A stretch of 64,000 nt of DNA from Tellurirhabdus bombi (GTDB lineage Bacteria > Bacteroidota > Bacteroidia > Cytophagales > Spirosomataceae), in assembly GCF_021484805.1 (NCBI RefSeq), contig NZ_CP090557.1:310001-374000 (forward strand), in the 5' to 3' direction. Both the position numbers and the translations under genes were made by a program. The notes under the pieces were generated by a model. The model did no database searches. It was not told where the DNA came from and worked only from the letters and a program-made list of their open reading frames with translations. This document shows positions 31,975-60,212 of this stretch, in pieces. How positions within the stretch are numbered: position 1 is the stretch's first letter; each line of letters starts with the position of its first letter.

Positions 31975-32051
31975 GGTCCGGTAGTTCAGTTGGTTAGAAT
32001 ACATGCCTGTCACGCATGGGGTCGCGGGTTCGAGTCCCGTCCGGACCGCCA
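31975..32051 (+). tRNA. tRNA-Asp (anticodon GTC)
   Basis: A full cloverleaf of 77 bases including encoded CCA. The acceptor stem GGTCCGG pairs with CCGGACC (32041-32047); the anticodon stem CATGC/GCATG encloses loop CTGTCAC with GTC at 32009-32011; the T arm is GCGGG-TTCGAGT-CCCGT. The adjacent integrase marks it as the probable prophage integration site. Confidence 0.97.
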
Positions 32052-32257: not shown

Positions 32258-33502
32258 ATGGAATTGCTGTACTACTTTGCTCGGTCCAAAAAGGATAAAC
32301 AGTACGGCACTATCAAGCTATCAGTTGTTATTCCTGGCCAAATAGAATCGGTTTACTCGACCGGTATTCAAATTGATCGGAAACTTTGGGGTGGAAATTT
32401 GCGCCGATTCGTGGAGAAAACGGATTGGGCCAAAAGACGAAACACTGAGCTACGTCAGATTGAGTCAGATGTCGAAGTTGTGCGGGATTTGTTGGTTATG
32501 GCTGGGTATGAATTAATGCCTGCATTGATTACAAAGGCTTACCGGAATTTAGCAAGTAGTAACCTGCCGTTAACGCTAGATAACATTACAGAAGCTCTTG
32601 GGGATTCGGCTAGGCCGGACCTGCAACTCATTGAAGCTATAGACTGGCTTATAAAGCACAAGCAAAAAGACATTAAAGATGAATCGACCGGAGATACTTA
32701 CCGAGCCAGGCGAAAAAACTTTGTTAACTGGGTCCAGTCTATAAAACGCCCCAAGTTCTTAGCTTCTGATTTCAATGTAGAGAAAGCTTTGCTTTTTTGT
32801 GACTGGTTGCGGTGTCAACCCAATGGCAAAGGAGGCTTAATGAGTCAGAATCACGTAGCAAGGCATATTATATTTATAAAGGAGGCTATTGAAAAGACTG
32901 TAGGTCGTGGACTTGTTCGACAGGATCAAATTTCAAAATTTGTCTACAGTCGCAAAGAGGTAAAAGATTTACGTCATTTCAATCCCGACGAAGTTGATCT
33001 GCTTTACAAATTAGATATTGAATCTTGTTTCGCTGATCAGCAATTGGCTGAAAAGGTTATAATTGTCAGAGATCTATTCATTTTCTGTTGCTATACAGGC
33101 TTTCATTACGTTGACAGAAATGGCTTATCCGGCAATAATATCAAAATACGCAACGGGTCGCCTTGGATTTACAAGCAACGCGGCAAAACGGGTATAATGG
33201 CAAAACAGAAAATACACCCTGTTGCCCTAGATATTATTGATAAATATGGCGGCGTTGATTATTTGCCTAAGGTCAATAAGAATGACAATAATGACTGGTT
33301 AAAGTTATTGGAGTCCGCAGCAGGCCTTAAGATTGGGCTTAGTACGAAGATTGCCCGGAAGACTTTTGCCTATATGTGTCTTAATGTCTGGCATATTGAT
33401 AAAGACACGGTAGCGGTGATGATGGGCCTGAAATCTCCAAGGCATATTTCCGATTACGCGGAGATTGACGAAAATAGAATTGAACACGCCATCAACTGGT
33501 AG
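32258..33502 (+). CDS. int: Phage tyrosine-type integrase
   Basis: A 414-residue tyrosine recombinase of the Bacteroidota type: an N-terminal arm-binding region (1-100), a SAM-like core-binding domain (about 120-230), and a catalytic domain. Expected catalytic positions are diverged: YTGFHYVD has His where Arg I usually sits, IARKTFA keeps Arg II but is preceded by Lys where His is expected, and MMGLKSPRHISDYAEID keeps the nucleophile Tyr but lacks the LGH motif. Some Bacteroidota integrases such as IntDOT also lack Arg I. Position next to tRNA-Asp supports integration there. Confidence 0.88.
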   Translation: MELLYYFARSKKDKQYGTIKLSVVIPGQIESVYSTGIQIDRKLWGGNLRRFVEKTDWAKRRNTELRQIESDVEVVRDLLVMAGYELMPALITKAYRNLASSNLPLTLDNITEALGDSARPDLQLIEAIDWLIKHKQKDIKDESTGDTYRARRKNFVNWVQSIKRPKFLASDFNVEKALLFCDWLRCQPNGKGGLMSQNHVARHIIFIKEAIEKTVGRGLVRQDQISKFVYSRKEVKDLRHFNPDEVDLLYKLDIESCFADQQLAEKVIIVRDLFIFCCYTGFHYVDRNGLSGNNIKIRNGSPWIYKQRGKTGIMAKQKIHPVALDIIDKYGGVDYLPKVNKNDNNDWLKLLESAAGLKIGLSTKIARKTFAYMCLNVWHIDKDTVAVMMGLKSPRHISDYAEIDENRIEHAINW

Positions 33503-41948: not shown

Positions 41949-42494
41949 ATGGCCGCGCCGACGGGAAATAAGTTTGCTGTAGGAAATAGTGGGGGGAGGC
42001 CTCCGATATATGCTGATGCGACAGTTTTGACTGAAAAGATTATAGAGTTTTTTGAGTGGTGCAAGGGGGAGTCCCACACTGAAACTAGAACGAGAACCAA
42101 AATCGATAAGGAGACTAAACAGCCCATTATTGAAGACTACGATATTGTAGTTTGGGACAGGCTACCCGAGCAGCCGAATATAACAAATTTGGCTTTGTTT
42201 TTAGGCTTTGATTCAAGGCAGTCTTTTTATGATTACGGCAACATTGAAGAGTTTTCTTACACTATAAAAAGGGCGAGACTAGCGATTGAAAACTACTATG
42301 AAGATCACCTTCTTGGAGACTCGGCAACAGGTGCCATTTTTGCTTTAAAAAACTTCGGATGGAATGACAAGACTCAACTCGAACACTCTGGTAAAGATGG
42401 AGGTCCGATTGAACACAGTAGGAAAGTAAACTACGACGATTTAACCGACGAAGAATTAGAAATCATTATCGCCCGTGGTAAGCCCACTCAGTGA
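41949..42494 (+). CDS. terS: Terminase small subunit
   Basis: A 181-residue protein starting at ATG 41949 (MAAPTGNKFAVGNSGGRPP). The N-terminal NKFAVGNxGGRPP basic start and helix-turn-helix-like region (about 55-105), then the C-terminal helical oligomerisation part with ATGAIFALKNFGWNDKTQLEHSG, are typical of phage DNA-packaging proteins that bind pac/cos sites. It overlaps terL by 20 bases, supporting the pairing. Confidence 0.82.
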   Translation: MAAPTGNKFAVGNSGGRPPIYADATVLTEKIIEFFEWCKGESHTETRTRTKIDKETKQPIIEDYDIVVWDRLPEQPNITNLALFLGFDSRQSFYDYGNIEEFSYTIKRARLAIENYYEDHLLGDSATGAIFALKNFGWNDKTQLEHSGKDGGPIEHSRKVNYDDLTDEELEIIIARGKPTQ

Positions 42495-43893
42495 AATACA
42501 GATAGCCGAATCGAAACTGGCTGAACGAGCCTATGCCCGTCGTAACTTCCGAAACTTTGTTCCCGTAGTTCGGCCTGGTTACGACATGCGCTGGTTTCAT
42601 CGGGTTATTGCTGATGAGTTGCAGAAGGTCTATGAGCGCAAGACGCGAAAACTGATGATCTTCGTCCCGCCCCAGCATGGCAAATCAGAACTGTCTACCC
42701 GTTCGTTTCCAGCCTGGGTGCTCGGCAAAAACCCCAATGAGAAAATAGCTATTGTTTCTTACGCCGCCGGTATCGCTTCAAAGTTTAACCGGGATATTAA
42801 ACGCCGGATGGAAATCAGTGCCTATCGCAACCTGTTTCCAAAAACGAGGCTATCCGACGGGCGGGATGGATATACTAAAAATAACCTGGAATTTGAGATT
42901 GTCGGTGCTGATGGGTACGGTTACTCTGTTGGGGTTGAAGGTGCGCTGACTTCAAAAACGGTAGATATGGGTATCATTGATGATCCTGTAAAAGACCGGC
43001 AAGACGCCCAATCGCTTACAATCCGCGAAAACACTTGGGATTTCTACACCGACGTATTCGAAACCCGCCTGCATAACGAATCCGTTCAGGTGCTGATTCA
43101 GACGCGTTGGCACGATGATGATTTATCGGGGCGCTTGCTCGTTCGCGATGGCATCTATAGCGAATATAATCCGACCGGTTGGCGGGTTGTCTCCTTCCCT
43201 GCCCTAAGAACCGAAGATCAGAACGACTTTGATCCCCGCCCCGTCGGTGTTGCCCTTTGGCCCGAACGTCATTCACAGGAGAAGATCGAAAAGATCAAAA
43301 AAGATAGCCCAGTCACCTTTAACGCGCTTTACCAGCAAGACCCTAAACCGTCACTTGACGCTTTGGTTTATCCGAACTGGCTGCAATGCGAAGCTTTCCC
43401 CAAATACTGCAACCGTGTTGTGTACGGCCTTGACTTTGGATTCACTAATGATCCGACCGCTTTGGTTCGCGTTGGTGTTGATCGCAAAGCCTGTTATTTG
43501 GAAGAACTAATTTACCAAACCGGCCTGACTACCTCAAAGTTGGCCGAACTAATGAAGGCTATCGGTATCAAGCCTTATGATCTCATCATTGCTGACAGCG
43601 AAGAGCCCAAAACCATCGCTGAACTTCAGCAACTCGGATTCACGGTATTGCCTGCCATTAAGGGGCCAGGTTCACTTAATGCGGGCATCAACAAAATGAA
43701 CGAGTATCAGGTCTGGTATACCGCCGCAAGCTCTCACATTGCTAAAGAATCAAAGCGATACCAGTGGGTAATGGTCGGAAATAAGCCCACTAATATCCCC
43801 GTCGAAGGTCACGATCACGCTCTGGACGCCGCCCGTTACGCAGTTTACACTTTATTCAAACAAGATTCCTTCGGAGAAATTGAGGTTTACTAA
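42475..43893 (+). CDS. terL: Terminase large subunit
   Basis: A 472-residue packaging motor. The ATPase has Walker A PPQHGKSE (65-72) and Walker B MGIIDDP (165-171); the coupling region follows (QVLIQTRWHDDDLSG). The nuclease domain begins with VVYGLDFGFTNDPTALV (about 320) supplying the first Asp, and LIIADSEEPKT and GHDHALDAARYAVYT supply later acidic residues. All catalytic residues appear intact, so the prophage may still package DNA. Confidence 0.95.
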   Translation: MVSPLSEIQIAESKLAERAYARRNFRNFVPVVRPGYDMRWFHRVIADELQKVYERKTRKLMIFVPPQHGKSELSTRSFPAWVLGKNPNEKIAIVSYAAGIASKFNRDIKRRMEISAYRNLFPKTRLSDGRDGYTKNNLEFEIVGADGYGYSVGVEGALTSKTVDMGIIDDPVKDRQDAQSLTIRENTWDFYTDVFETRLHNESVQVLIQTRWHDDDLSGRLLVRDGIYSEYNPTGWRVVSFPALRTEDQNDFDPRPVGVALWPERHSQEKIEKIKKDSPVTFNALYQQDPKPSLDALVYPNWLQCEAFPKYCNRVVYGLDFGFTNDPTALVRVGVDRKACYLEELIYQTGLTTSKLAELMKAIGIKPYDLIIADSEEPKTIAELQQLGFTVLPAIKGPGSLNAGINKMNEYQVWYTAASSHIAKESKRYQWVMVGNKPTNIPVEGHDHALDAARYAVYTLFKQDSFGEIEVY

Positions 43894-44726: not shown

Positions 44727-44931
44727 AAAAACGGTATTGATCCGGCTTTCGAACGGGAAGCCGGTAAAGTTTCCACCCAAACAGGCCATTAAGCTTTTGA
44801 AACTTCAAGAACGCACTGGCTTTGTCGATTACAAGTTACCCGACACCACCACCAATGAGCCTGACAGCCCAGCAGATAATCCAGCGAATAAAACAGCCCG
44901 TCAACGCGGACGCTCTTCAAAAGGGAGCTGA
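44713..44931 (+). CDS. Small basic phage protein, 72 residues
   Basis: ATG 44713 overlaps the end of the previous gene. MPPPKKTVLIRLSNGKPVKFPPKQAIKLLKLQ is basic and the C-terminus is polar (TNEPDSPADNPANKTARQRG). It overlaps the portal start too, so translation is coupled. It resembles the short genes often found before portals, with no known role. Confidence 0.5.
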   Translation: MPPPKKTVLIRLSNGKPVKFPPKQAIKLLKLQERTGFVDYKLPDTTTNEPDSPADNPANKTARQRGRSSKGS

Positions 44932-46693
44932 AGACAACGATAGGCAGCGTTTTCATTCCAAGCTGGCAGGCAATAAAGGCGAGGCGGGGCCTTACTACGC
45001 CAAGTTTATCAAGTACATCGGCGGGGTGTTGGATGAGTTGGACCGGCCCGAGAACGAGAATTTCAAGACCCAGCGTTTTGAATCCCTGATGACCTGGCCG
45101 CTCACGTCGTCCCGCATGGTGTCGGATTCCGCCGATGGGTATTCCAAATGCTTTACAGCGGAAGACCGGCTCATTGAAACCGACTTCACCGATGAAGCCC
45201 TGAGCGAAGACTGGCAGGGGTTTCTGGCCCAGATACGCTTTGAAGACACGCTGCGCAAGCGAATATTCACCCAGGCGTTGCAGGCGGCCAACGCGGTTTG
45301 GGTGGTGGATTTACCCCAGGTACAAAAATCAGATTACCCCGAACCAGCGATTCTGATTCGGGAATTTGGCGCTATCAAGGACATTGAAGCCGATAAGTTC
45401 GGCGGCGTGGCCTGCGTCATCTACTCGATTTCATCACTGGTTGATGCCGATGGTAAAGAGACCACCAAGCGGTGGGTTGGGGTTGATGACCAGTCTTACC
45501 GGTTGATTCACCAGCCCATAAACTCGGAAGCCTACACGGTGCATCTGGACATCCTGCACAACCTGGGCCGGTGTCCGGCGGGTTTTGTGTGGCACGAAGT
45601 CTTAGACCCCAACAGTCCTTTGCGGCGCGAGTCGCCGATTCACGGGCTTATGGGTTCCTTCGATGAGTTCATTGCTACGCGGGGATTCCGGGAACACAGC
45701 GATACCTACGCCGCCTGGAAGATCATTCGCCAGTACAAAACCAAGTGCGATTACGTCAGCAACCAGGGCGAACGCTGCGAGGAAGGCGTTGTTCGGATAA
45801 TCCATTACTACTCCGACGGGATAACGGCCAAGGGGTCAACTAGCCGGGCTTGTCCGTCCTGCTCCAAGAGAAAGCCCATTGGTCCCGGTACGACGTTCAA
45901 GGTGCCGATGCCCACCAGCAAAGACCAGCCCGACCTGAAAGACCCGATTGGGTTTGTGGAAGGGTCTCGGGAAATACTGGACTACGTAGCCGAAAAGATC
46001 AAGACGCAGGAAGAAAGCCTGCATTTTGCGTTGACGGGCGACCGGGGCAATGTAGACCAGACCGCCCAGCCGGTCAATGCCGATCAGGTAGCGGCGCGAA
46101 TCGAAAGCCGGAAAGACGTGGTGAAATGGTGGGCTACCAACATGGAACGCGTCAATGCGGAGTTGTTCGACGCTTTAGCCGGGCTTCGCTACGGGGATCA
46201 GTACCTGGGTTCGACGGTCAACTACGGGGATGAGTTTCACTTGGTGAGCGTAGCCGAAGCGGAACTGGCCTACCTAGATGCCCAGAACAAGGGGATGCCC
46301 ATGTACATTCTGGGTGAAAAGCGGGCCAAACTCACGAGCCTGATTGCGGGGGCTTCCGAACGGCGTCGGCTCAGGCTGGACATTCTTTCGCAGTTGGAGC
46401 CCTACCCCGATGTTGCCCTCTCGAAGGTGCAGCAGGGCACGCCGGATCACGAGTTGAAAGCCGGATTTTCCAGCTACATCGCCCGGTTTGAACGGGAGTA
46501 CTTACCCATTGAGCAGGTTGCCCTGGGTAAAAGCATGGCCGCCCGCATTACGTTTATCCGTACCGAACTGCTCAAATACGTCAAAGAAACGATGGATTCC
46601 TGGCCGGTGCCGGATCCCGTAGATCAACCTTTTAATTCCAACAAAAATGGGAAAGCAGCAAGAAAACCAGCCACTGCAAACGCCGGGGCTTAA
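44855..46693 (+). CDS. Portal protein with a Cys4 insertion
   Basis: A 612-residue protein starting at Met 44855 (MSLTAQQIIQRIKQPVNAD). The helical N-terminal clip/wing region, SPIHGLMGSFDEFIATRGFRE, and the C-terminal long helix with EFHLVSVAEAELAYLDAQNKGMP support a portal, as does its place between terminase and scaffold/capsid. An insertion at about 298-336 has Cys298, Cys308, Cys333 and Cys336 (CPSC), which looks like a zinc-binding knuckle uncommon in portals. Start overlaps the preceding small gene. Confidence 0.75.
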   Translation: MSLTAQQIIQRIKQPVNADALQKGAEDNDRQRFHSKLAGNKGEAGPYYAKFIKYIGGVLDELDRPENENFKTQRFESLMTWPLTSSRMVSDSADGYSKCFTAEDRLIETDFTDEALSEDWQGFLAQIRFEDTLRKRIFTQALQAANAVWVVDLPQVQKSDYPEPAILIREFGAIKDIEADKFGGVACVIYSISSLVDADGKETTKRWVGVDDQSYRLIHQPINSEAYTVHLDILHNLGRCPAGFVWHEVLDPNSPLRRESPIHGLMGSFDEFIATRGFREHSDTYAAWKIIRQYKTKCDYVSNQGERCEEGVVRIIHYYSDGITAKGSTSRACPSCSKRKPIGPGTTFKVPMPTSKDQPDLKDPIGFVEGSREILDYVAEKIKTQEESLHFALTGDRGNVDQTAQPVNADQVAARIESRKDVVKWWATNMERVNAELFDALAGLRYGDQYLGSTVNYGDEFHLVSVAEAELAYLDAQNKGMPMYILGEKRAKLTSLIAGASERRRLRLDILSQLEPYPDVALSKVQQGTPDHELKAGFSSYIARFEREYLPIEQVALGKSMAARITFIRTELLKYVKETMDSWPVPDPVDQPFNSNKNGKAARKPATANAGA

Positions 46694-47309: not shown

Positions 47310-48191
47310 ATGAGTGACGTAGCCATTACCGTTGATGCCGTGAAGCAGGCCATTGCTTCAAATCCCGAGTTACAGGGACAGCTTTTTGAGACATTCGAGC
47401 CGGATTTTACGACCTATCTGACTGGAACCAAAAAGATGATTGTCGCTAGTGAAACAGACTTTGCCGCTGACCGGCAAAAGCTGATCAATGACACGACCAA
47501 AGCCATGCATGAGAAATGGGAAACTGTCTTGCAGCCCGTATTGGGCAAAAAGCCAGATGGCCCTAATGTTTTGGCCTGGGCCGATCAGACTTTCAAAACC
47601 AAGAAGCTGATAGCCTCAGATAGCGATGGCCCTGACGGTCAGGTAAAGAATCAACAGATTGACCAACTCACTCAGGAAGTCAATAAGCTTAAAACAAGCT
47701 TAGAAGAAAAAGACAAAGCTGTTTTTGGGGCCAAAGTGAACAGTTCGGTAACGTCGGCTATTGACAGCCTGAATTTCCCGGTACCTGCACACTTAGCCAA
47801 AGACGAAAAAGCCAAAGCCGCCTTTCTCAAAGACCAGAAAGCCGCTGCTAAAGCGCTGTTCGGCGGACTATACACCCCCGAAGAAATGAAAGACGGTGCT
47901 GTTGTTTTTAAAGACTCAGAAGGCAACGTGCTGGCCGACAATGGTACGCCACTGACAGCGGCCCAAATCTTCGAGAAAAACCACAGCCATATGCTGGCCC
48001 CGAAAGGTCGTCAACAGAACGGCACGGGTTCCGCAGACGATGCAAATCACTCGGAAAGCCCTGACTATAAAGGGGCGACCGAAGACGAGATCATTGATAA
48101 GCTCGCAGAAGAGAAGCTGGCAGCCGGGTCAATGGCTTGGCAGGAAGCCTACAAGAAGGCGATGGCCGCTGCGGGTATTCCGATCAAGTAA
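47310..48191 (+). CDS. Probable scaffold protein, 293 residues
   Basis: Helical, acidic, low-aromatic protein immediately before the major capsid gene. A coiled coil at about 115-140 (IDQLTQEVNKLKTSLEEKD) and a basic/acidic helical C-terminus with AEEKLAAGSMAWQEAYKKAM are typical of scaffold proteins that are removed from the prohead. No protease was recognised. Confidence 0.6.
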   Translation: MSDVAITVDAVKQAIASNPELQGQLFETFEPDFTTYLTGTKKMIVASETDFAADRQKLINDTTKAMHEKWETVLQPVLGKKPDGPNVLAWADQTFKTKKLIASDSDGPDGQVKNQQIDQLTQEVNKLKTSLEEKDKAVFGAKVNSSVTSAIDSLNFPVPAHLAKDEKAKAAFLKDQKAAAKALFGGLYTPEEMKDGAVVFKDSEGNVLADNGTPLTAAQIFEKNHSHMLAPKGRQQNGTGSADDANHSESPDYKGATEDEIIDKLAEEKLAAGSMAWQEAYKKAMAAAGIPIK

Positions 48192-48262: not shown

Positions 48263-49291
48263 ATGGCAGGCTTAGCCGCTACCGTCCTGCAAAAAGCCAT
48301 TTTCAAGGCTACGCAGAACTTTATGAAATTCGAAACCCGCCGTCCTGATCTAGGATTGGTGGAAGCGTACGACAAATACAAAGACATGGTTGTCCCTACG
48401 ACTGCCATGGCCGCCGCCCGCGCATCGGCATCCCGTCCGCTGGAAATCTCCGTACTGAAACGTAAACAGACGGAGATTCTGGAAGAACGCAGTCCGACGC
48501 TAACGGGGGGCAACTCAGAATCGGCCCGTGTGCCACTGAACTTTAAAACGTTCGGTTTCGAGGTGGGTTTAACCCGTGCCGTGAATGCGGATAACGACTT
48601 TTCGGCCACGGAAGATTTGGCCAACCAGATCGAACAGGGTATTCGAGACATGCTGATTGAAGTGGATGAGTGGCTGGCTGGTGTTACGGAGCTTAGCAAA
48701 TATTCGGCACTACCGGCATCAAGCCTGATGAATGTCAGTGCGGGTGCTTACGAGACAACCACAAAAGACATCTTCGTGAATCTTCCTGCGGTGATGCGTA
48801 AGCTGATGCTGCGCGGCCCGTACCAGATGATGACTAACGTGGAATCGCTGGCCAACTTCACCAATATGTCTACTTACGGTGCCCAGAACGCCCGTAACCT
48901 GGAAAAATTGCTGGCTGGCTACGAGTTCACCTACTCGCACAACCTGACGCCGGGGGCGGGCAACAAAGAGGTGTATTTCGCTACGCCGGTCGGCTCACTG
49001 GCAATTGTGCCTTGGGTTGAATGGGATGCTCGCAACCCGCCTGAAGCGTCGAATCAGCTGGGCTATGGCACAATGGAAATGGAGTTTGCCTCGCTCTCGG
49101 GCTACAACTTCAATTTACCAATGGGCTACATGATGCTAGGTGGTCCGCAGGACAAATCGGCTATTCGTAGCGGGTTAGAGCGGGCCTACACGCAGGCATG
49201 GGGTTTCTTCGTGGACTTGGCTGCTATCCACTCCTTTAGCTCGGAGGCTGGAAAATCGCCAATCGTGAAGTACAACGCCAGCGACATCTAA
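48263..49291 (+). CDS. Major capsid protein
   Basis: A 342-residue protein after the scaffold candidate. The N-terminus is helical (LAATVLQKAIFKATQNFMKF), an E-loop-like beta region (FKTFGFEVGLTRAVN) and long helix (LANQIEQGIRDMLIEVDEWLAG) follow, and a beta-rich P-domain-like core ends with YAFFVDLA-type strands. Order and length suit an HK97-fold capsid, although specific family membership is not certain. Flanked by hairpins. Confidence 0.75.
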   Translation: MAGLAATVLQKAIFKATQNFMKFETRRPDLGLVEAYDKYKDMVVPTTAMAAARASASRPLEISVLKRKQTEILEERSPTLTGGNSESARVPLNFKTFGFEVGLTRAVNADNDFSATEDLANQIEQGIRDMLIEVDEWLAGVTELSKYSALPASSLMNVSAGAYETTTKDIFVNLPAVMRKLMLRGPYQMMTNVESLANFTNMSTYGAQNARNLEKLLAGYEFTYSHNLTPGAGNKEVYFATPVGSLAIVPWVEWDARNPPEASNQLGYGTMEMEFASLSGYNFNLPMGYMMLGGPQDKSAIRSGLERAYTQAWGFFVDLAAIHSFSSEAGKSPIVKYNASDI

Positions 49292-49809: not shown

Positions 49810-49883
49810 AGGCGGGTAGTTCAGTGGTAGAATGTCGGTCTCCAAAACCGTTGATGCAGGTTCGATTCCTGCCCCGTTTGCCA
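49810..49883 (+). tRNA. Prophage tRNA-Trp (anticodon CCA)
   Basis: A 74-base cloverleaf with encoded CCA. The acceptor AGGCGGG pairs with CCCGTTT (two G-T pairs); D arm GTTC/GAAT; anticodon loop CTCCAAA with CCA; T stem GCAGG/CCTGC with TTCGATT. The anticodon stem has a T-T mismatch at its top (TCGGT/ACCGT). It lies on the coding strand inside the late region. Confidence 0.9.
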
Positions 49884-49913: not shown

Positions 49914-50141
49914 ATGTCAAGCCTTGGCGAATCACGCGTACGGACATCGTTCAACCCATCCCAGAATGATACTGTTTCAACTATCAAACAGGACTCAGCA
50001 GCCCTAATTAACAAGATCAATGAGTTGCCAGTGCCAGAAAAATGCACTCAGAATCCTGGTGAATTTCTGCGTTTAAAGTCTCTGGCTTTAACTGCCATTG
50101 AGGAAGCAGCAATGTGGGCCGTAAAAGCGGCTACAATCTAA
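49914..50141 (+). CDS. Probable Acb2/Tad1-family cyclic-nucleotide sponge (anti-CBASS/anti-Thoeris candidate)
   Basis: A 75-residue protein starting at Met 49914. RVRTSFNPSQNDTVSTIKQD (residues 8-27) and the C-terminal helix IEEAAMWAVKAAT (62-74), joined by a helix with ALINKINELP, match the small phage helical-hairpin family that I recall being called the Acb2/Tad1 hairpin domain. Characterised members bind cyclic dinucleotides or cyclic ADP-ribose signals and thereby disarm CBASS or Thoeris. Function here is inferred from family resemblance only. It is followed by a 12-bp perfect hairpin (50143-50170). Confidence 0.6.
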   Translation: MSSLGESRVRTSFNPSQNDTVSTIKQDSAALINKINELPVPEKCTQNPGEFLRLKSLALTAIEEAAMWAVKAATI

Positions 50142-51705: not shown

Positions 51706-52140
51706 ATGAAAAAAGTCGCCTTAGCCAAGGTGTTTGCCCGCCCGCTGGAACAACTCAACCCTGAGCGGGCACTGGCTGAAGCGATGCGTCAGCACAGGCA
51801 GGACATCATTGATGTGCAGCAGGATCAGATGTATTCTGGTGTCGAATCAACGGGTAGCCCCATTGAGCCGTTTTATTCCCACTTTACCAAGCAAATCAAG
51901 GAAGAGAAAGGGCAACCGACTGACCGGGTAACGCTGAAAGACACGAGTAGCTTTTACAACAAGATGCGGACCAAGACGACCCAGAAGCAAACGGAGGTCA
52001 CGTCATCTGATTCAAAAACGGGCGAACTGGTCGAGAAATACAGCGAAAACATTTTCGGACTTACGCCTGCCAACACCAACACCGTGGGTCAATGGGTTAA
52101 GCCCACCTTTCAGAAAATCATCAAGAATCAGCTCAAATGA
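51706..52140 (+). CDS. Hypothetical phage structural protein, 144 residues
   Basis: Mostly helical and basic (KVFARPLEQLNPERALAEAM, RQDIIDVQQDQMYSGV) with a Ser/Thr-rich middle. Overlaps the next gene by 4 bases. Position in the connector region suggests a head-completion or neck protein. Confidence 0.5.
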   Translation: MKKVALAKVFARPLEQLNPERALAEAMRQHRQDIIDVQQDQMYSGVESTGSPIEPFYSHFTKQIKEEKGQPTDRVTLKDTSSFYNKMRTKTTQKQTEVTSSDSKTGELVEKYSENIFGLTPANTNTVGQWVKPTFQKIIKNQLK

Positions 52141-56687: not shown

Positions 56688-59600
56688 ATGTCCGCTATAC
56701 AACACAATGACGTTTTCGATTTCGACGGCTATTTTAAAAAGCTGCATGACCTCGAAGCCGAAACCCAAGATTTCGCCAATTCTTCCGCTGAAGCCGCTAA
56801 GCGAATAAAGTCAGCTTACCATGAGGTCAAACAGGAGTTGGCCGAAATTGAACGAAAGCTAAAAGCCTTCAATCTCGTTCCTAATGGCGCTATCCCTAAG
56901 CTGAAAGAGTTTGAGGATGAGATCGAAAAAACCGGGAAGCAGGCCCAGGCGACCCGTGACGCTATCGACTCCCTGACCGATGCCAATAAAGCCAATGAGT
57001 TATCGGTTAAAGAGCTTGATCTGGTTTTAAAACAACTCAAAAAAGACTACGATGCCCTGAAGCCGGGGCAGGCCGACTACGCCGCCAAGCAGCAGGAGAT
57101 CATCAACAAAACCAAGATTGCCGGGCAGGTTATTGACGGGCAGAATGCGGCGTTGAAAGAAGCCCGCAAATCGGTTAATACGGTCACCAACTCCTACAAT
57201 GAGCTTTCCCGAAAAACCGCCGAGATGCGGAAGGAGCTCAACAATATGTCGGGGGCCTATGATCTGAACACGGGCAAGATCAACAAGAACAACCGGGCGG
57301 CGGTCGAGATGCAGAAGCAAATCGACAAAAACGACCGGGTTTTAAAGAAAATGGACGCCTCGGTTGGTGTTCACACCCGCAACGTGGGCCATTATCAACT
57401 GGCTCTACAAGGGCTGGTTGGCGGGGGCTTGCAGGGTATGCTGATGAGCCTGGGGCTGGTGGGTGCCGCCGCCGCCGCCCTGATTAACCCGTTCCAGGCC
57501 GCCGTCAGGGTCATGGAGAACATGGACCGGATGGATTCGGGCCTGAAAGCCGCCCTGGGCTCGCAGGAAGCTTTCGAGCGGGGCCAGTCGTTTCTGGTAA
57601 AAACGTCGTTGTCGCTGGGGCTTAACTACGAATCACTGGCCAAGTCCTATAAAGGACTCGCCGCCGCAACCCGCAATACGAGTCTGGAAGGCAAATCCAC
57701 GGAGCAAATATTTCTGGGCATCTCCAAGGCCGGGGCGGCACTCCAGCTTTCCAACGAAGAAGTTGAAGGCTCTCTGTATGCTATCTCCCAGATGGTCAGT
57801 AAAGGGACTGTTTCGATGGAAGAGCTACGGCAACAATTGGGCGAACGTCTTCCAGGGGCCATGCGGCTACTCGCCGAAGGAATGGGCATATCTCAGGGTG
57901 AACTCAACAAGCTGGTTGAATCCGGGCAGCTAATGGCCACGGAAGTCTTGCCCAAACTGGCCTCACAGCTGGATAAAACTTACGGAGCCGATGCCCAGAA
58001 GAATCTGGATACAATGGGCGGGCAGTGGAATAACCTGACCACAACGGTGCAGCTGTTTCTTAAAGCGCTGAACGAAGACAAAGCCGTGACGGGGTTTTTC
58101 GCCCGAATGATGGGTGGACTTAGCGGCGTTCTCAAAAAGTGGGGCGAACTGCGAGCCGTGGGGGGTGGATTCGGCACCATGATTGGCGCCAAGGTGGACG
58201 GTTTGTTTGGGGGTGTTGGTGCCGACTCGGAGCGCATGCGGGCCGCCGAGAATCGAACCCGTATCATGGATACCTATAGTCAGGCTACCCCACTCTACCA
58301 GCAAAAGGTCATTCAGAAGCTCAATGATGAACTAAATGCCGCCCGCAAAAAGCTAATGACCGATGTATCGGGCGCTGAGCAGGCAGGCTTGCAGGTCCGC
58401 ATTGATACGACCAAAAAGCTGATTGACGAACTACGGGGGCTTACTGCGTCAAACCGTCGTCAGGAACGCCGGGAAGCCGAAGCCCACGACAAAGCGCTAG
58501 CCGTTGAAAAGGCCGACCGGGACAAAAAAGCCGCCGAAAAAGCTGGTAAGGATAAAGAGAAGCAGGATAAAAAGGACGAAGCCGCCCGGCGTAAACGCAT
58601 TGCCGCTGAAAATGCAGCCCTATCCAGCCAGTTGCAGGTTGCCCGCGAAAAAACGGGGACGAACATCAACCGGGTCGGGATCGATAAGGAGTCCGGCGAA
58701 CTTGATGATTCGGCGGCGCTGAAAAAAACGTATCAGGCCCGCATCGAAGGGGCGTATGCCCAGATGCGTCTGATCAAAAAGGCGGGCAAGGAAAACAGTC
58801 AGGAGTTCCGAGATGATTTCCTGAAAGCCCAGAAAGAGGTCGCCGATGCCCAGCAGGATTACCTGCGGGAAGTGAACAAGCTGGAATCGGCCAAGTGGGA
58901 TAAAACCATTCAGGTAACCCGCGATGCCTTAAAACAAATTGATTCAGACAGCAAAGACAGACTGACTGAGCAGCTGGGCACGTTGGATGCCGCCTACGAA
59001 GAACAGCGGGGCAAGATCGAGGCCAATGTCAAGCTGCGTAAAATCTCGGAAGAAGAAGGCGAAAGGCAGATTTACGACCTGCGGATCAAGTATTTGCAGG
59101 ACACCCAGAAAGCGGTCGAAGCGTCGGCGCTGGCCGACAAAACGGCCTCGCTGAGCCTGATTGATGGCAAGATTGCGGATTTGGAAGCCTGGCGCGATTC
59201 GGCGGGGCGCACGGCCAAGCAGGTTTCGGAAGCCAACCTGCAAATCGCCGATTTGGAACGGCTGCGGCAAAAAGAGATTGACGACGAAAAGCTGGCCCGC
59301 ACCAAGGCCAATGCCGAGCAGGAGAAAAAGACCGCCAAGGATAAATCGGATTACGAGATTGCCCAGGCGCAGCGGGCGGCCCAGATGCAGGCCCAGATTC
59401 AGCAGGCCGCAATCGATACCTACCGCCAAGCCGTTGAAGGCTATTTCGAGTTTTTGAGTGGCAACCGGGAACACGATCTGGAAATGCTGGAAACCCAGAA
59501 ATCCAATGAACTAGCATTGGCCGGGGATAATGAGGAAGCCAAGGCCAAGATTGAAGAAGACTTCATGAAGAAGCAGCGGGAGATCAAGCGCAAACAGGCC

Positions 59601-60212
59601 ATTGCCGACCGCGCCGCCGCGCTCTTCAATATCTACATGAACATGGGGATGGGGATCATGTCGGTACTCAGTACCGGGGGTGGTACGCGGTACGCCGACT
59701 TTGGGGTGTCTGCCGGAATCCTCAGTGGCTTTGTGGCCGCCCAGGGGGCGCTGCAAGCGGGCCTTATTTTGTCCAAACCGTTACCGGCCTATAAGATGGG
59801 TAAAGATGCTTCTGATCCCTATACGGGCTGGGCTATTGCCGGTGAAGCGGGGGCAGAGATCCACGTACAAAATGGCAAAGCGACGCTGGTGGACAAGCCC
59901 TCATTGATTTACACCCAGGTTGGCGACACGATCTTTCCGGCCAATGAAACCGCCCAGATCATGAGCGGCTTGCAGGAGTCCCGGCAATGGCGAGAAGCGG
60001 GCGAACAGCTACAGCAGGCCCATTTACAATTCCTGGCTTCGTCGGGGCTTGATGAGCAGGCTATCGAGCGGGCATTTGACAAGTCGTTGGTTAAGGCTTT
60101 TGCGAGCCAGCCGATTCACCAGACGATCTACGACCGGGACGGTATCCATTCCAGGATTATCGAAAACGGCAACAAAACGACGCATCTCCACACAAATAAA
60201 TTCACTTCCTGA
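56688..60212 (+). CDS. Tail tape measure protein, 1174 residues
   Basis: The longest phage gene. Long N-terminal coiled coils (about 10-240), an apolar segment (GLVGGGLQGMLMSLGLVGAAAAALI, about 242-270), the tape_meas domain (SLYAISQMVSKGTVSMEELRQ, TEVLPKLASQLDKTYG), an extended Ala/Lys-rich helical rod (about 570-960), and a C-terminus with GEAGAEIHVQNG. It sets tail length; at about 0.15 nm per residue it would specify roughly 175 nm (inferred). Its stop overlaps the next gene's start. Confidence 0.92.
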   Translation: MSAIQHNDVFDFDGYFKKLHDLEAETQDFANSSAEAAKRIKSAYHEVKQELAEIERKLKAFNLVPNGAIPKLKEFEDEIEKTGKQAQATRDAIDSLTDANKANELSVKELDLVLKQLKKDYDALKPGQADYAAKQQEIINKTKIAGQVIDGQNAALKEARKSVNTVTNSYNELSRKTAEMRKELNNMSGAYDLNTGKINKNNRAAVEMQKQIDKNDRVLKKMDASVGVHTRNVGHYQLALQGLVGGGLQGMLMSLGLVGAAAAALINPFQAAVRVMENMDRMDSGLKAALGSQEAFERGQSFLVKTSLSLGLNYESLAKSYKGLAAATRNTSLEGKSTEQIFLGISKAGAALQLSNEEVEGSLYAISQMVSKGTVSMEELRQQLGERLPGAMRLLAEGMGISQGELNKLVESGQLMATEVLPKLASQLDKTYGADAQKNLDTMGGQWNNLTTTVQLFLKALNEDKAVTGFFARMMGGLSGVLKKWGELRAVGGGFGTMIGAKVDGLFGGVGADSERMRAAENRTRIMDTYSQATPLYQQKVIQKLNDELNAARKKLMTDVSGAEQAGLQVRIDTTKKLIDELRGLTASNRRQERREAEAHDKALAVEKADRDKKAAEKAGKDKEKQDKKDEAARRKRIAAENAALSSQLQVAREKTGTNINRVGIDKESGELDDSAALKKTYQARIEGAYAQMRLIKKAGKENSQEFRDDFLKAQKEVADAQQDYLREVNKLESAKWDKTIQVTRDALKQIDSDSKDRLTEQLGTLDAAYEEQRGKIEANVKLRKISEEEGERQIYDLRIKYLQDTQKAVEASALADKTASLSLIDGKIADLEAWRDSAGRTAKQVSEANLQIADLERLRQKEIDDEKLARTKANAEQEKKTAKDKSDYEIAQAQRAAQMQAQIQQAAIDTYRQAVEGYFEFLSGNREHDLEMLETQKSNELALAGDNEEAKAKIEEDFMKKQREIKRKQAIADRAAALFNIYMNMGMGIMSVLSTGGGTRYADFGVSAGILSGFVAAQGALQAGLILSKPLPAYKMGKDASDPYTGWAIAGEAGAEIHVQNGKATLVDKPSLIYTQVGDTIFPANETAQIMSGLQESRQWREAGEQLQQAHLQFLASSGLDEQAIERAFDKSLVKAFASQPIHQTIYDRDGIHSRIIENGNKTTHLHTNKFTS

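Follow-up and report, generated by a model that had tools for sequence, protein, structure and literature searches.

The window, by which we mean the whole stretch of 64,000 nucleotides analysed here, carries on its forward strand an intact open reading frame (ORF) at 49914-50141, which runs over 76 codons including the stop, from ATG to TAA, and encodes a protein of 75 amino acids, MSSLGESRVRTSFNPSQNDTVSTIKQDSAALINKINELPVPEKCTQNPGEFLRLKSLALTAIEEAAMWAVKAATI. Over the same positions the reverse strand is interrupted by stops. Both motifs named in the first-pass annotation are present in the 75-residue translation, RVRTSFNPS at R8-S16 and EEAAMWAVKAAT at E63-T74. The gene and its parts are as follows.

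49914..50141, plus strand: Acb2/Tad1-hairpin-domain protein of 75 aa, putative cyclic-nucleotide sponge (PF24729, translation, AlphaFold2 pLDDT 97)
49923..49937, plus strand: predicted short N-terminal helix, residues 4-8 (LGESR; DSSP on the AlphaFold2 model)
49935..49961, plus strand: RVRTSFNPS motif, residues 8-16, with F13 at the position of Vs.4 Y8 and Acb2 Y11 (alignments)
49968..50021, plus strand: predicted hairpin helix 1, residues 19-36, with K25 at the position of Vs.4 K23 and Acb2 K26 and L31 at that of Vs.4 L29 (AlphaFold2 model; K25 and K26 are also paired in hhalign)
50055..50135, plus strand: predicted hairpin helix 2, residues 48-74, with R53, A58, M67, W68, A69, K71 and A72 invariant (AlphaFold2 model, alignment of 115 relatives)
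50100..50135, plus strand: EEAAMWAVKAAT motif, residues 63-74, with A65 and A69 at the positions of the Vs.4 hexamer-interface residues A73 and A77 (alignments, hhalign)

As had been proposed, the gene belongs to the late region of a prophage. Genes for the terminase large subunit (42475-43893), the portal (44822-46693) and two virion structural proteins (47310-48191 and 48263-49291) are found upstream, and downstream follow a tail protein gene at 51706-52140 and the tape-measure gene at 56688-60212. The GC content of the gene is 45.8% as against about 54% in the flanking genes. A tRNA-Trp (CCA) gene (49810-49883, plus strand) also sits within the late region, and the ORF begins 30 bases after it; among the other copies of the gene that were examined, none has a tRNA-Trp beside it. 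The left end of the prophage is likely represented by a tRNA-Asp gene (31975-32051) and the integrase-like frame that follows it (32258-33502), which was called by eye, has no Pfam match and resembles a stretch in another phage-carrying locus. Phage-like genes extend beyond the end of the window, and the right end of the prophage was not located because no attachment-site repeat of the tRNA-Asp 3' end was found in the window or the next 19 kb. In the region at 374-393 kb of the host genome, the prophage switches strand after lysis and amidase-like genes, ahead of two DNA methyltransferase-like genes of 359 and 363 aa that were recognized by sequence only (L270, 10983-13150).

The protein had been assigned to the Acb2/Tad1 hairpin family on the strength of its motifs, and a profile search bore the assignment out: PF24729 (Acb2_Tad1_hairpin) matches residues 13-74 with E=7.2e-13 and 49 bits, above the curated cut-off of 27 bits, and the match covers positions 2-57 of the 58 in the profile. 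All 115 clade members tested match PF24729 as well, and so do the positive controls T4 Vs.4, PaP2-type Acb2 and SBSphiJ7 Tad1. No paper naming PF24729 was found in the literature searched. PHROG 717, which contains T4 Vs.4 and its homologues (PMC10097602), gives a weak match (E=1.1e-4), and NCBIfam gives none. Profiles were needed because a single-sequence phmmer search against PDB sequences found nothing. With hhalign, the 115-row profile of the clade aligns to the Acb2 clade with E=3.2e-9 over 56 columns, to the Vs.4 clade with E=3.6e-7 and to SBSphiJ7 Tad1 with E=1.3e-5 over 24 columns; as a yardstick, Acb2 aligns to Vs.4 with E=8.4e-11. Homology of the clade to Acb2, Vs.4 and Tad1 is well supported by these profile comparisons. 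A tree built from about 160 short sequences has low support where the query clade joins and served only to show that Vs.4 and Acb2 form clades of their own. No experimentally tested sponge was found within the query clade. The family is one of known phage sponge proteins, some of which take up the alarm molecules that bacteria make against viruses, and this gene is a further member of it, in a large, mostly untested branch.

A comparison of the predicted structure with Acb2 and Tad1 had also been suggested, and it bore out the likeness in part. With the 115-row alignment, AlphaFold2 returned a model with a mean pLDDT of 97 and helices at residues 4-8, 19-36 and 48-74, that is, a single domain composed of a short N-terminal helix and an antiparallel two-helix hairpin. 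The Acb2 protomer has the same layout, a short N-terminal helix and a helical hairpin, to which Tad1 adds an N-terminal beta-sheet (PMC12043709). No beta strand is present in the model of the 75-aa protein, and since the N-terminal antiparallel beta-sheet domain of Tad1 is thus missing, the protein is Acb2-like and not Tad1. The part that did not hold is the link to solved structures: a Foldseek search of the PDB found no Acb2, Vs.4 or Tad1 chain at E<=10, while a model of PaP2 Acb2, run as a control, retrieved its own structures and Vs.4 (E=2e-3, TM 0.73), which indicates that the solved hairpins resemble one another more closely than the query resembles any of them. Among predicted viral proteins (BFVD), the best Foldseek matches carry the name Acb2/Tad1 hairpin protein (E=7e-5, TM 0.90). 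The fold class is right, but the PDB search gave no sign of a close structural identity with the solved proteins.

The closest known proteins compare with the query as follows. Acb2 of Pseudomonas phage PaP2 (p26; PDB 8H2J, 8H2X) matches PF24729 and is, like the protein here, a single domain with a short N-terminal segment and two antiparallel helices; by profile alignment K25 corresponds to its K26, R53 to R67, K71 to R85 and T60 to T74. PaP2 Acb2 is, however, 93 aa long, whereas the protein here has 75 aa with a shorter loop and shorter helices. Its opening reads GYRDLSQEEID where the clade has GExRVxxFNPS, it bears an AQPxxF tail where the protein here ends soon after the AAT motif, and Foldseek did not link the model to 8H2J. 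With T4 Vs.4 (an Acb2; PDB 7UQ2), the protein has in common PF24729, the hexamer-interface alanines and a closely similar stretch (EASMWACRA in Vs.4, EAAMWAVKA here), with Y8, K23 and R79 of Vs.4 corresponding to F13, K25 and K71. It differs from Vs.4 in having S16 for H11, T74 for F82 and the invariant R53 for D61, and in its N-terminal motif, and it lacks the EEKY tail. In Tad1 (SBSphiJ7, CBTad1; PDB 7UAV, 8SMD), the second hairpin helix, RxNAxAxTxxEEAxMW, matches RLKSLALTAIEEAAMW here, but Tad1 has about 125-142 aa and an N-terminal beta-sheet domain that contributes to the pockets for gcADPR and dinucleotides, whereas the 75-aa protein is without strands. 'Acb2 homolog 43' (PDB 9PTQ, 76 aa) is a similarly short hairpin with an R...T.EEA motif and a weak profile match (E ~0.006), and it has FFATKAAA where the query has MWAVKAAT; the literature searched yielded no paper on it. 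Hypothetical proteins of Flavobacterium phages (FCV-1 gp63, FCL-2, elemo phages) are 48% identical over nearly the full length with an identical N-terminal motif, but FCV-1 gp63 lies near helicase and RusA genes and not near head genes as here.

R53, A58, M67, W68, A69, K71 and A72 do not vary among the 115 relatives; F13 and N14 are kept in 113 and K25 in 114 of them, T60 and V70 are likewise at least 98% conserved, and G5 and V9 are conserved in more than 90%. The hexamer of Vs.4 depends on L29, A66, A73 and A77 (PMC10097602), which align with L31, A58, A65 and A69, and judged by residue identity only these positions are kept in 92, 115, 105 and 115 of the 115 relatives, respectively. The contacts of Vs.4 with cGAMP are Y8, H11, K23, R79 and F82 (PMC10097602), and the alignment places F13, S16, K25, K71 and T74 at these positions. 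F13, K25 and K71 of the dinucleotide pocket are thus kept and near-invariant, and H11 and F82 are changed; the pairing of F13 with Y8 and Y11 comes from the multiple alignment only, since hhalign stops short of F13. In Vs.4, F82 stacks on the base, with a more than 25-fold effect. The hhalign pairings are R53 with Acb2 R67, K71 with Acb2 R85 and Vs.4 R79, and K25 with Acb2 K26. R53, an arginine in all 115 relatives, thus stands at the position of Acb2 R67, which we take to be the arginine of the trinucleotide pocket; Cao et al. are said to have described in 2024 that R67 contacts the cyclic trinucleotide. Mean entropy is 0.50 bits at the 13 positions mapped to ligand or interface sites of Vs.4 and Acb2, whereas random positions average 1.84 bits and none of 20,000 random draws came as low; this permutation responds to ligand binding and to general helix packing alike. 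Going by the alignment, the positions that correspond to ligand or hexamer contacts of Vs.4 rank with the best conserved across the 115 relatives.

The 75-aa protein is probably an Acb2-type oligomeric sponge that would sequester cyclic oligonucleotides and so act against CBASS-like signalling, its ligand class, oligomer and anti-defence role being inferred. The small hairpin subunits would pair and trimerise, probably into a hexamer, with pockets between them in which cyclic oligonucleotide alarm signals would be bound and kept uncut. At prophage induction or superinfection, the effectors of CBASS-like systems, or of another system using such signals, would in this way be kept off. Of the two predicted pockets, the one for cyclic trinucleotides at the trimer interface is the part on which we would bet, because the invariant R53 occupies the position of Acb2 R67. 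The dinucleotide preference may differ from that of Vs.4, as F13, K25 and K71 are kept but the counterparts of Vs.4 F82 and H11 are missing.

Less probable, though the strongest of the alternatives, is a hairpin homologue with another ligand, in which the oligomer and central pocket are kept but the protein sequesters a signal outside the molecules tested for CBASS and Thoeris, or another nucleotide. The clade is separate and has a near-invariant signature of its own (G5, V9, F13-N14-P15, R53, M67-W68-A69-V70-K71-A72), the tested Vs.4 and Acb2 clades group on their own, and the replacement of H11 and F82 by S and T alters the known contacts. The same reading gains from the host genome, in which the profile models for SMODS CD-NTase, ThsB_TIR, TIR_2 and Cmr2 found no match and hence no CBASS or Thoeris cyclase; SMODS (CD-NTase) is present in 8 of 59 relatives and ThsB_TIR in 13 of 59. 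For the sponge reading, this absence of targets is neutral to mildly unfavourable, since the target of a counter-defence gene may be absent from the lysogen in which the gene resides. Against a new ligand, Acb2 and Tad1 bind many di- and trinucleotides (PMC12043709), so that a changed pocket may stay within the known range, and phosphate binding is in keeping with the retention of K25, K71 and R53.

The distribution of the clade bears on whether the protein is a sponge at all. A second copy, 77% identical, is present in the host genome at 2922820-2923038 (about 2.92 Mb; L006, 1492-1731), in a different prophage-like region and placed similarly among phage genes. Relatives in isolated phages are mainly from Flavobacterium phages (about 48% identity) and annotated as hypothetical, a motif scan of IMG/VR gave at least 526 contigs with confirmed clade relatives, and 57 contigs of bacterial genomes, mainly of Bacteroidota and Alphaproteobacteria, carry relatives. 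Within the host family the clade occurs in 9 of 200 genomes. The neighbourhoods vary, with helicase, HTH and RusA-like genes in other phages and, beside further relatives, phage PAPS reductase, portal and head-morphogenesis genes or a methyltransferase. Beyond distant terminases, essentially no synteny of this prophage's structural genes was found around the relatives.

It is improbable, in light of these patterns, that this small phage protein has the sponge fold but another function, such as helping in structure or assembly or acting as a regulator within the late operon. The gene does lie between head and tail genes, and the second host copy and a copy in another genome (G062, L010) hold comparable positions beside phage genes for proteins of about 300 and 156 aa; the almost invariant C-terminal helix would also be unusual in a protein engaged in an arms race. 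The varied neighbourhoods elsewhere, however, indicate that the gene is not tied to one module, the structural genes next to it here are not common to the relatives, and few related genomes carry it. An exchangeable accessory gene fits the variable neighbourhoods and the lower GC content, and an accessory gene for counter-defence would be expected to show such varied surroundings and sparse presence.

The reading as a decayed gene or an ORF arisen by chance was rejected: although the frame is short, lower in GC than its neighbours and close behind a tRNA gene, it is intact, 115 relatives align with it and share its start region, homologues occur in phages, IMG/VR and bacterial genomes, and the two host copies differ mainly at synonymous sites (pN 0.14, pS 0.78), which points to strong purifying selection.

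If the protein does work as a sponge, this prophage and the sister prophage in the same genome bear counter-defence against nucleotide-signalling immunity in a Bacteroidota host; no tested Acb2 from a Bacteroidota host was found in this analysis. The main interest lies in the size and uniformity of the clade, which spans hundreds of phage contigs with an almost invariant C-terminal helix. We tentatively propose that the GExRV-FNPS-MWAVKAAT clade might form a large branch of hairpin sponges whose ligand specificity is perhaps fixed by the invariant R53 and K71, possibly for a signal new to Acb2. The Acb2 family has been described as 'relatively rare' (PMC11722364), and if the proposal is true, Acb2-type counter-defence would be much commoner than described so far. 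The ligand of one clade member would show which signals a large set of environmental phages absorbs.

Several further hairpin genes were seen in the course of the survey. A related host genome (G076) carries a close clade member (L008) alongside a divergent hairpin protein (MTDRFRQQYTPVTDQQ...; contig G076:C9, L011, 1477-1725), which is about 31% identical and looks intermediate between the query clade and Vs.4. In two T4-like contigs (L185, 1495-1779; L188, 1495-1716), the C-terminal part of the Vs.4 gene is apparently frameshifted, with sequencing error possible, and these frameshifts agree with published work in which some phages lost acb2 when selected by Panoptes. Sponges make the Panoptes system OptSE toxic (PMC12657218). 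In the Rhodobacteraceae MAG CATOSB01, a related hairpin gene occurs seven times, spread over seven contigs (L123-L128, L130); every copy matches the query to the same degree (50% over residues 9-74), which suggests several related prophages in this MAG.
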